Shown piece after piece: positions 35,578 to 52,946 of a stretch of 64,000 nucleotides of DNA; position 1 is the stretch's first letter, and each line of letters starts with the position of its first letter. The stretch covers positions 3,348,001-3,412,000 of the forward strand of contig CP001643.1 in the NCBI GenBank assembly GCA_000023405.1, given 5' to 3'. Source of the DNA: Brachybacterium faecium DSM 4810. Lineage in GTDB: Bacteria; Actinomycetota; Actinomycetes; Actinomycetales; Dermabacteraceae. The notes under the pieces were generated by a model. That model was not told the DNA's origin. It did no database searches and was given only the letters and a program-made list of their open reading frames with translations. Made by a program: the position numbers and the translations under genes.

Positions 35578-37140
35578 TCAGGCCCTCGCGCCCGGCTCCC
35601 CCGCCGCGGCCGCCTCGGCCGTGCGGTCGCGCGCCTCGCCCGTGGCGAGCGATTCGAGCATGTCGTCGTACTCCTCCATCGCCGTCGCCGGCGGCTGCGG
35701 GGTGATCAGGCTGACCACGATCGCCAGCACCAGGCAGACGAGGAAGCCGGGGATGATCTCGTAGAGGTGCTGGGAGCCGAACAGGCCCCAGGCGACGTCG
35801 GGCTCGAACTGGCCCCATACGAAGGCGACGCCGGCCCCGGCGACCATCCCCGCGCCGGCCCCGGCCGCGGTGAGGCGGCGCCAGAACAGCGACAGCAGCA
35901 CGATCGGTCCGAAGGCGGCGCCGAAGCCCGCCCAGGCGAAGGCCACCAGGCCCAGCACGGAGCTCTCCGGATCCAGCGCCAGCAGCAGCGCGATGATCGA
36001 GACGGTCAGCACGCCGATGCGCCCGCCCCACAGGGCCCCCTTCGCGCTGAGCGTGATCCCGACGCCGCGCACGAGGTCCTCCACCAGGGCGGAGCTGGAG
36101 ACGATCAGCTGCGAGGAGATCGTGGACATGATCGCCGCGAGCACCGCCGCGAGCAGCAGGCCGGCGATCAGCGGGTGGAACAGGATCTGCGCGAGGTCCA
36201 GGAACACGGACTCGCCGTTCTTCGTGTCGGTGAGGACGGCGTCCGCGTTCTGCTGGAAGAAGGCCAGGCCCGCGAGGGCGGTGAACACGGCGCCGAGCAC
36301 GCACAGCACCATCCAGGACATGCCCACCACGAGGCCGTACCGGGCATCGCGCGAGGAGCGCAGCGCCATGAAGCGCACGATGATGTGGGGCTGCCCGAAG
36401 TAGCCCAGCCCCCAGGCGAGCGAGGAGATGATGCCGATGAAGGTGCCGCCGGCGGTCATCGAGCCGAAGTTCGCGTCGACCTCCCGCACGGACTCGAGCA
36501 TCGCCGCCGGTCCGCCCACGACGACCATCGCCGTGATCGGCACGACCAGCAGCGAGACGAGCATGATCAGGCCCTGCACCACGTCGGTGTAGCTCGCGCC
36601 GAGGAAGCCGCCGAACAGCGTGTACACGATCGTCACGCCGGCCACCAGCAGCATGCCGGTGACGTACCGGCCGCCGAACATCGACTCGAAGAACACGCCG
36701 CCGGCGACCATGCCGGAGGAGACGTAGAAGGTGAAGAACACCAGGATGATGACGCCGGCGGCGATGCGCAGGATGTGCGTGCGGTCGTGGAGGCGGTTGC
36801 CGAAGAAGCTCGGCACGGTGATCGCATTGCCGGCGATCTGCGTGTACTGGCGCAGCCGCGGCGCGACGAAGAACCAGTTCAACCCCGCGCCGAGGGTGAG
36901 GCCGACGGCGATCCACGCCTCCACCAGCCCGTTCATGTACAGCGCGCCGGGCAGGCCCATGAGCAGCCAGCCCGACATGTCCGAGGCCCCGGCGGAGAGC
37001 GCGGCGGTGAACGGGTGCAGCTGGCGCCCGCCGAGCATGTAGTCCTCGCCGTCCTCCGTCTTGCGGAAGGCGTAGAGGCCGATGCCGATCATCGCGCCGA
37101 AGTAGACGGCCAGGGCGATGACCTTGAAGACGACATCCAT
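35578..37140 (-). CDS. putP: Sodium/proline symporter
   Basis: This 520-residue SSS-family carrier has 13 expected membrane helices. The N-terminal GRQLHPFTAALSAGASDMSGWLLMGLPGALY contains the Na+/proline-binding signature of PutP (SAGASDMSGWLL). It brings proline in with Na+. The C-terminal 40 residues are Ala/Glu-rich and cytoplasmic. GGAG lies 6 bases before the start. Its upstream region holds the tandem-repeat block at 37361-37490. No proline dehydrogenase gene lies nearby. Confidence 0.92.
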   Translation of the reverse strand: MDVVFKVIALAVYFGAMIGIGLYAFRKTEDGEDYMLGGRQLHPFTAALSAGASDMSGWLLMGLPGALYMNGLVEAWIAVGLTLGAGLNWFFVAPRLRQYTQIAGNAITVPSFFGNRLHDRTHILRIAAGVIILVFFTFYVSSGMVAGGVFFESMFGGRYVTGMLLVAGVTIVYTLFGGFLGASYTDVVQGLIMLVSLLVVPITAMVVVGGPAAMLESVREVDANFGSMTAGGTFIGIISSLAWGLGYFGQPHIIVRFMALRSSRDARYGLVVGMSWMVLCVLGAVFTALAGLAFFQQNADAVLTDTKNGESVFLDLAQILFHPLIAGLLLAAVLAAIMSTISSQLIVSSSALVEDLVRGVGITLSAKGALWGGRIGVLTVSIIALLLALDPESSVLGLVAFAWAGFGAAFGPIVLLSLFWRRLTAAGAGAGMVAGAGVAFVWGQFEPDVAWGLFGSQHLYEIIPGFLVCLVLAIVVSLITPQPPATAMEEYDDMLESLATGEARDRTAEAAAAGEPGARA

Positions 37141-37360
37141 GGGAGGGCTCCGATCTCACGGGGACGCGCGAGGGCCCTGGTCGGACAACGGCGGCCGACG
37201 CGGTCACCGACGAGGCGCCAGCGGCGCCCCGGGGAACCAGGGAATGCTCGAACCTTACGCCCGTTATGCCCGGAGCACAGCCCTCGTTGCCCGACGGTGA
37301 CCTCCGCCCCCCCGCCCGATCGCAGCGCAATGTCATGCCGCAGAACCACAGCGGCCGCTC

Positions 37361-37490
37361 TGGCGCAGCACATCGGTGACCGTGATTGGCGCAGCACATC
37401 GGTGACCGTGATCGGCGCAGCACATCGGCGACCGCGATTGGCGCAGCGCACCGGTGACCGTGATTGGCGCAGCGCACCGGTGACCGCACA
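37361..37490. repeat. Five 26-base tandem repeats
   Basis: Five head-to-tail units begin at 37361, 37387, 37413, 37439 and 37465. Each reads TGGCGCAGCACATCGGTGAC followed by CGTGAT, with a few substitutions; units 1 and 2 are identical. Each unit contains the small palindrome CGGTGACCG. The period is not a multiple of 3, so it does not encode a peptide repeat. Confidence 0.9.
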
Positions 37491-37548
37491 GTCATGTGCA
37501 CACCAGAGCCATTCCTGGCACTCAGGTGCACATAACCGTGCGGTCACC
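37479..37548. repeat. Long inverted repeat downstream of glpK
   Basis: GGTGACCGCAC (37479-37489) pairs with GTGCGGTCACC (37538-37548), and ATGTGCAC (37494-37501) with GTGCACAT (37526-37533), separated by 4 unpaired bases on each side and a 24-base loop. The left arm starts inside the last tandem repeat. It could be a terminator-like structure for the glycerol operon or a protein site. Confidence 0.75.
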
Positions 37549-37601
37549 GGGGTGAGGGCCCCGGGGGCCCCGGGGGCACTGGGGGTGCTGGGCGGGGCGG
37601 C

Positions 37602-39146
37602 TCAGCTGTGCAGGGCGTCGGTGTCCTCGTCCACCCAGTCCAGCGTCCGCTCGACGGCCTTCTTCCACAGGCGCATGTAGCGGTCGCGGGTCTCGTCCTC
37701 CATGGCGGGCTCCCAGCGCTTGTCCTCGGCCCAGTTGTCGATGACGTCCTGCTCGCCCTCCCAGAAGCCGACGGCGATGCCGGCGGCGTAGGCGGCGCCG
37801 AGCGCGGTGGTCTCGATGACCTTCGGGCGCACCACCGGCACGCCGAGGATGTCAGCCTGGAACTGCATGAGCGTCTCGTTCATGACCATGCCGCCGTCGA
37901 CCTTGAGCTCGGTGAGCTCGACGCCCTCGCCGGCCGCATCCGCGATCGCCGCGTCGAGCACCTCGCGGGACTGGAAGGCCGTGGCCTCGAGCACCGCGCG
38001 GGCGATGTGCGACTTGTTGTGGAAGCGGGTCATGCCCACCATCGCGCCGCGGGCGTCGGAGCGCCAGTGCGGGGCGAACAGGCCGGAGAACGCCGGGACG
38101 ATGAACAGCCCGCCGTTGTCGTCGACCTCCTTGGCGAGGTCCTCGATCTCCGGGGCGCTCTTGATGAGCCCGAGGTTGTCGCGCACCCACTGCACGAGCG
38201 AGCCGGTCACCGCGACGGAGCCCTCGAGGGCGTAGATCGGCTTCGCGTCACCGATCTTGTACGCCACGGTGGTGAGCAGGCCGTTCTCGCTGCGCACCAG
38301 GTCCTCACCGGTGTTGACCAGCATGAAGTTGCCTGTGCCGTAGGTGTTCTTGCCCATGCCGATCTCGAAGCAGGCCTGGCCGAAGGTGGCGGCCTGCTGG
38401 TCGCCGAGGATGCCGGCGATCGGGGTGTCGATGAGCAGGTCGTTCTTGCGGCCCTTGCCGTACACCTCGGAGGAGGACTTGATCTCCGGGAGCATCGACA
38501 GCGGGATGCCCATGTCCTCCGCGATGTCCTCGTTCCAGTCGAGGGTGTCGATGTTCATGAGCATCGTGCGGGAGGCGTTGGTGACGTCGGTGACGTGGAT
38601 GCCGCCGTTGGTGCCGCCGGTCAGGTTCCACACCAGCCACGAGTCGGTGTTGCCGAACAGCAGGTCGCCGGCCTCGGCCCGCTCGCGGGTGCCCTCGACG
38701 TTGTCGAGGATCCACTTGACCTTGGGACCGGAGAAGTAGGTGGCCAGCGGCAGCCCCACGCGCTCCTTGTACCTGTCCGCGCCCTCGTCGCCGGCGAGCT
38801 CGTCGCAGATGTGCTGGGTGCGGGTGTCCTGCCAGACGATCGCGTTGTAGACCGGCTCACCGGTGTTCTTGTCCCACACCACCGCGGTCTCGCGCTGGTT
38901 GGTGATGCCCACGGCGGCGAGCTGATGGCGGTTGATGTCCGCCCCGGTGAGCGCCTCGCCCACCACGGAGCGGGTGTTGCGCCAGATCTCGAGCGGGTCG
39001 TGCTCGACCCATCCCGACTTCGGGAAGATCTGCTCGTGCTCCTTCTGGCCGGTCGAGACGATCTGCCCGTCGTGGTCGAAGACGATCGCGCGGGTCGAGG
39101 TGGTGCCCTGGTCGATCGAGAGGATGTACTTCTGCGTGTCGGTCAT
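37602..39146 (-). CDS. glpK: Glycerol kinase
   Basis: This 514-residue enzyme phosphorylates glycerol to sn-glycerol 3-phosphate. It has the N-terminal [33 protein letters not shown] near residue 85 and the ATP-binding [17 protein letters not shown] of GlpK. AAGGAG precedes the start. It is the last gene of the glpD-glpF-glpK order, 91 bases after glpF. Length matches the family. Confidence 0.96.
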
Positions 39147-52014: not shown

Positions 52015-52848
52015 TCAGCCCGCTGCGGCGCGGGCCTTCATCCGCGCGTCGAGGGAGAGCGCGACGCGGGTGAGCATGAGGTTGATGACGATGTAGATCA
52101 CGGAGACCACGAGATACGTCTGCACCAGGTAGCGGGTGATCGAGACGAGCGTCTTGCCCTGGAACTGCAGCTCGTTGTAGCTGACCACGTAGCCGAGCGT
52201 CGAATCCTTGAGCAGGGTGACCAGGGCGAGGATCAGGCTGGGCAGCACCAGCCGCACCGCCTGCGGCAGCACCACGTAGATCAGCGAGTCGCGGCGGCTG
52301 AGCCCGATCGCGTCCGCCGCCTCGTGCTGCCCCTTGTCCACCGCCTTGATGCCCGCGCGGAACACCTCCGCGGTCGCGGCGCTGGAGACCAGGATCATCG
52401 GGACCACCAGCATCCAGAAGCGCGGGAACGTCACGCCGAACGCCGGCAGGGCCAGCAGGAACGCATAGACCACCAGCAGCATCGGGATGCCGCGGAAGAA
52501 CTCGATCCAGGTCACCGCCACAGCCTTGAGCAGCCGGAACCGCGACATCCGCGCCAGGGCGAGCAGCAGCCCGAAGGGGAAGGCGACCACGGCGGCGAGC
52601 GCCGTGACCTTGAGCGTCCCCCACAGCCCGTGCCCGAGGAAGGCGAGGTAGTCGGCGCGGAGATACACCACCCACTTGTTCGGATCCAGCTGGCCGTTCG
52701 CGTGGAACTGCCACAGCGCCCCCGCCAGCAGCGCGAGGATCGCCACGACGCTGAGGATCGACAGCAGCAGGATGCGACGCCGCCCCTTCGGGCCGGGAGC
52801 GTCGAAGAGGACCTGGGTGGCGGTGGAGGAAGACGTGGCAGTGCTCAT
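52015..52848 (-). CDS. Polar amino-acid ABC transporter permease (GluD-like)
   Basis: This 277-residue membrane protein has an N-terminal helix near residues 28-48 and the HisMQ-type permease domain (GHGLWGTLKVTALAAVVAFPFGLLLAL), with EFFRGIPMLL and the ATPase-contact loop near KAVDKGQHEAADAIGLSRR. It is most like glutamate permeases of actinobacteria. The start at 52848 overlaps the end of a duplicated micro-ORF by 4 bases, with GGAGGAG upstream. Confidence 0.9.
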   Translation of the reverse strand: MSTATSSSTATQVLFDAPGPKGRRRILLLSILSVVAILALLAGALWQFHANGQLDPNKWVVYLRADYLAFLGHGLWGTLKVTALAAVVAFPFGLLLALARMSRFRLLKAVAVTWIEFFRGIPMLLVVYAFLLALPAFGVTFPRFWMLVVPMILVSSAATAEVFRAGIKAVDKGQHEAADAIGLSRRDSLIYVVLPQAVRLVLPSLILALVTLLKDSTLGYVVSYNELQFQGKTLVSITRYLVQTYLVVSVIYIVINLMLTRVALSLDARMKARAAAG

Positions 52849-52946
52849 GCGCGCATCTCCTCCCGCTCGTTCCTCGCAGTTCGTCGACCCGCAGTGCTCA
52901 TGCGCGCATCTCCTCCCGCTCGTTCCTCGCAGTTCGTCGACCCGCA
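52841..52946. repeat. Perfect 53-base tandem duplication between two permease genes
   Basis: Bases 52841-52893 and 52894-52946 are identical. Each copy, read leftward, contains a GGAGGAG site and an ATG. The next 10 bases (from 52947) repeat the opening of the unit. Duplication of the gene junction explains the two micro-ORFs at 52845 and 52898. Confidence 0.95.
52845..52901 (-). CDS. Micro-ORF, second copy (18 residues)
   Basis: The frame reads MSTAGRRTARNEREEMRA then TGA. Its ATG overlaps the stop of the first copy and its stop overlaps the start of the downstream permease (ATGA at both ends). Its first four residues match those of the permease (MSTA). Peptide function is unknown; it may only pass ribosomes along. 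Confidence 0.45.
   Translation of the reverse strand: MSTAGRRTARNEREEMRA

Follow-up and report, generated by a model that had tools for sequence, protein, structure and literature searches.

The window analysed here, a stretch of 64,000 nucleotides (G000:C1:3348001-3412000), belongs to the single-contig, 3.61-Mb genome of Brachybacterium faecium DSM 4810. Between the genes for glycerol kinase (glpK) and a sodium/proline symporter (putP), we found a tandem array that abuts a long inverted repeat. Read along the minus strand, the order is glpK, 51 bases, the hairpin, the array, and putP:

35578..37140, minus strand: putP, sodium/proline symporter, downstream of the array (NCBIfam equivalog TIGR02121, 632 bits)
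37201..37209, minus strand: CGGTGACCG within the putP leader (motif match)
37361..37486, plus strand: tandem array of five 26-bp units, consensus TGGCGCAGCACATCGGTGACCGTGAT (TRF, unit pattern match, and unit comparison)
37477..37550, minus strand: long hairpin, probable glpK terminator (inverted repeat, folding, and family distribution)
37541..37549, minus strand: CGGTGACCG at the outer end of the second hairpin arm (motif match and inverted repeat)
37602..39146, minus strand: glpK, glycerol kinase, upstream of the hairpin (NCBIfam equivalog TIGR01311, 726 bits)

The five 26-base tandem units of the original prediction are borne out by TRF, which reports positions 37361-37486 with a period of 26, 4.8 copies, 92% matches, and a score of 203, and by a unit pattern that matches five times in the window against 0.09 matches expected from shuffled sequence. 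Exact copies of CGGTGACCG are present in four units, and the third carries CGGCGACCG. The core described as palindromic is, more precisely, a near-palindrome, as the centre of CGGTGACCG is odd. Units 1-4 differ from one another by transitions alone. Positions 10 and 13 distinguish units 1-3, which are of an ACATCGG type resembling IS ends, from units 4-5, which are of a GCACCGG type resembling the hairpin arm. No further copies of the unit were found in the window, a genome-wide search revealed no other array of it in B. faecium, and a plasmid collection searched with the array gave no match; the other unit matches, at chance level, fall in coding genes or tRNA. Two other origins were rejected: a coding one, as 26 is not divisible by three and no known protein extends over the array, and a CRISPR, as the array has no spacers.

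The inverted repeat is indeed joined to the array, but its arms, initially put at 11 and 8 bases, are 35 nt each (37477-37511 and 37516-37550), 83% complementary and separated by a 4-nt gap. It stops 51 bases short of the coordinates of the glpK stop codon (37602-37604, minus strand). On the plus strand, its 5' arm overlaps the last array unit, the CGGTGACCG of which forms the outer end of the arm. Similarly, the extra copies of CGGTCACCG noted at 37201 and 37541 are both present, but the latter is the 3' arm of the inverted repeat rather than an independent copy. The former, in the putP leader, has its counterpart in the glpK downstream region of a congener (G003), where CGTCGGTGACCG occurs with similar flanks, and therefore appears to be independent of the array. 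Array and inverted repeat are two different things that lie side by side.

Several features of the inverted repeat are those of a transcription terminator. A stable stem lies shortly 3' of the glpK stop codon on the transcribed strand, with a fold energy of -60.6 kcal/mol on the glpK-sense strand versus -49.1 kcal/mol on the opposite one. Moreover, of the six mismatched stem positions, three can pair as G-U in the glpK sense, and the other strand has no such pair. The U-tract of a canonical terminator was not found after the stem. The hairpin resembles the U-tract-free intrinsic terminators of high-GC bacteria, stable GC-rich stems at gene 3' ends that often lie between convergent genes. Unlike in these, the sequence of its stem is common to unrelated genes (GTTATGTGC...GCACATAAC, with an outer GGTNACC), which exceeds what a plain terminator needs. 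Altogether, its position, its strand bias, and its membership of a family bound to gene ends indicate that the inverted repeat is probably the glpK terminator.

The core CTCAGGTGCACATAAC and palindromes related to it are also found elsewhere in the B. faecium genome, at 659k, 2141k, 2212k, 2800k, 3512k, and 3514k. From 11 members of this hairpin family, a covariance model was constructed, which gave 18 strand-wise matches in the same genome, that is, about nine sites, and revealed the family in 24 of 38 congeneric genomes. Family hairpins lie 3' of glpK in G003, G021, and G024, and the model also matches near glpK in G015, G019, and G023. The structure scores of the family are partly built in, because the model alignment was assembled from palindromes that had been found; the gene-end bias is independent evidence for the role of the family. 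At the 21 family loci with callable flanking genes, these are convergent in 9 cases, tandem in 12, and never divergent. From this distribution, we infer that the family behaves as terminators. REP/BIME elements are dispersed intergenic palindromes of conserved sequence. The hairpin family is likewise dispersed, intergenic, and conserved, but it differs from them in having only about nine sites in its own genome. Near 2800k (L003, 1356-1460), the sequence GGTGACCATGCCGC(T/C)CCCA(G/A)TGC(T/C)CGCCTCCC occurs twice in tandem and adjoins another hairpin of the family.

The B. faecium genome also holds two intact copies of an IS481/IS1202-like element (524.7-526.2k and 3197.6-3199.0k), each encoding a 434-aa transposase with integrase-core (rve) and HTH domains. 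In NCBIfam, IS481 ranks first for this protein, below the cut-off, and ISNCY matches too. The left end of the element has two copies of GGACATCGGTGAC, 25 bp apart, and the right end of the 524k copy has three, with spacings of 25 and 26 bp. This arrangement of 2+3 end repeats is kept in several more distant relatives. The target duplications measure 18 bp at the 524.7k copy (L250) and 17 bp at the 3197.6k copy (L249), and both sit in the loop of a long palindrome whose arms are found around AACTTCTTGTCG...GCGTGACCT. Regarding other IS copies, inverted repeats flank L278 and, more weakly, L347, and a palindromic insertion site was not seen at L254, L255/L348, L344, or L345.

Elements of the IS1202 family have TGT...ACA ends and a further, internal copy of the inner end repeat, which has been likened to the TnsB sites of Tn7, and those of the Acinetobacter group encode transposases of 441-457 aa (PMC10132070). 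A long-TSD subgroup produces target duplications of 16-28 bp, the targets of which were not found (PMC10132070; Microb Genom 2023), and some IS481 members duplicate about 15 bp (PMC10045372). The resident element resembles the IS1202 long-TSD subgroup in its TGT...ACA ends, its length of about 1.45 kb, its 434-aa transposase, and its internal repeat copy, and its duplications of 17 and 18 bp fit the long-TSD setting of IS1202 and IS481. In contrast to the one additional internal copy described for IS1202, it has two sites at one end and three at the other.

The array had been thought to fit no family. We found that its units resemble terminal repeats of the IS481/IS1202 type, which also recur every 25-26 bp. 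The GGACATCGGTGAC core is present in the array at this spacing: ACATCGGTGAC stands at 26 bp in units 1-2, unit 3 has it with a single change, and units 4-5 have GCACCGGTGAC instead. The base preceding ACATCGGTGAC is G in the IS core and C in the window. Over 28 alignment columns, the distal array unit shows three to four mismatches to an IS end and at most one gap. The chance figures for this likeness, uncorrected for other IS ends open to comparison, are as follows: units 1-2 score 31 against IS ends, a value reached by 8 of 30,000 random units keeping CGGTGACCG; units 4-5 score 20-21, which 4% of random units reach; and the two-unit score is reached by 25 of 40,000 random units keeping CGGTGACCG and by none of 40,000 free random 26-mers. 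Since units 4-5 are at chance level, homology to the IS depends on units 1-3 being ancestral. That the IS-like units are the older type is favoured because the period matches and both diagnostic differences point to the IS sequence.

Neither an adjacent transposase gene nor an inverse second end accompanies the array, which is flanked by putP and glpK; neither a transposase remnant nor a target duplication was identified at the site, and no IS with exactly the unit of the window was found. In comparison with IS1202 elements, the window holds amplified and diverged units alone. Having neither transposase nor second end, the array is best classed as a probable relic and not as an element.

Tandem end sites of this kind occur elsewhere. 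When the pattern ACATCGGTGAC-N12-17-ACATCGGTGAC was searched in 396 order-level genomes, it gave 45 matches in 21 of them and none with the reversed control. All 45 are spaced 25 or 26 bp, and every match except the array is of the IS-end linker type. About a dozen tandem IS-type ends have no transposase within 1.5 kb; in G016 and G019, IS ends of two and three units adjoin hairpins, with no transposase nearby. A solo pair of ends is not always a relic, because one such pair (L344; G189, C18 17000-25400) bounds an element of 8.06 kb that has the 2+3 arrangement of end repeats and a target duplication of 15 bp; searches for a transposase gave none within it. A 0.9-kb element in G367 (L347, 1395-2286) has ends of the same type and a 14-bp duplication, and adjoins more end repeats.

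A search of the 396 genomes with the array itself gave only four other genomes with an E value of 1e-4 or better. The best match comes from G016, where two IS-end units form a pair that lacks a transposase; the matches of the remaining three genomes appear to lie in coding sequence. Within B. faecium, an IS end gives the second-best match. Among the 29 other congeners in which the glpK 3' regions were read, no array was seen there, the closest of them (G058, GlpK 95% identical) included. A separate 53-bp tandem repeat lies elsewhere in the window (52838-52956, TRF score 238), and its core, TCGACGAACTGCGAGG(A/G)ACGAGCGG, precedes GGAGGAGAT and, after that, an ATG. In many congeners, a related sequence stands after the glpK stop codon, and G021 and G028 have it in tandem copies.

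On balance, we lean towards a reading in which the hairpin is a terminator and the array an amplified relic of an IS481/IS1202-like IS end. The U-tract-free hairpin would end glpK transcription, and the array would descend from an end with transposase-type sites spaced 25-26 bp apart. A single diverged unit of this end may have been tandemly amplified, by slippage or unequal crossing-over, and the resulting units would have been joined to the outer arm of the hairpin, and partly converted by it, through the shared CGGTGAC.

A possible but less likely history dispenses with the IS: local slippage would have duplicated the outer arm of the terminator (CGGTCACCGG) in tandem together with about 16 bp of flank, and the likeness to IS ends would be coincidental. 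The last array unit is the hairpin arm itself, and the arm predates the array, since GCACATCACTGTGCGGTCACCGG follows glpK in G003, which has no array. In addition, the units closest to the hairpin resemble the arm most, and the absence of significant IS-end likeness in these units makes slippage a serious rival. However, positions 10 and 13 both shift towards the IS consensus in units 1-3, the period of the array equals that of the IS ends, and only 25 of 40,000 random units keeping CGGTGACCG reach the two-unit score (uncorrected, as above). Moreover, neither in G021 nor in G024 was a unit-like flank found on the downstream side of the hairpin.

A multi-site operator or protein array was originally proposed for putP regulation or for a nucleoid or replication function; in such an array, a dimer would bind each CGGTGACCG, and the 26-bp spacing would place the sites on alternate helix faces. 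The near-palindromic cores, the fixed spacing, the location upstream of putP, and the G003 counterpart of the putP-leader copy would suit such a role. Against it, the core of unit 3 is broken, the genome has no other array of the unit, and the nearest relatives of the array are IS ends. The conservation that a putP operator would call for is lacking in the glpK 3' flanks of the 29 congeners, and a nucleoid or replication site finds no support on the same grounds, which leaves this explanation improbable. It is more improbable still that the array is maintained as a transposase-free attachment site; its five transposase-type sites beside the terminator would then still be bound by the resident IS transposase and would guide insertion into nearby terminator palindromes or, by titration, repress IS activity. 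Least probable is a structured regulatory RNA combining array and inverted repeat: the minus-strand region of 247 nt has a better fold than shuffled sequence (z -4.7), but no element of this fold is more stable than the long hairpin, Rfam gives no family at threshold, and the 29 congeners have no array after glpK, so that of the structured element once suggested after glpK only the terminator-like hairpin stands.

Under the reading of an amplified IS end beside a terminator, the locus consists largely of ordinary genomic debris and a terminator, and the array probably has no host function. A striking composite of tandem and inverted repeats can thus arise from two ordinary parts, the sites of an IS end and a terminator. 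The position of the two resident IS copies in palindrome loops constitutes a testable target preference, although it is unseen in most other copies checked. The IS1202 paper knows no targets for its long-TSD elements, and this observation may matter more than the array itself.
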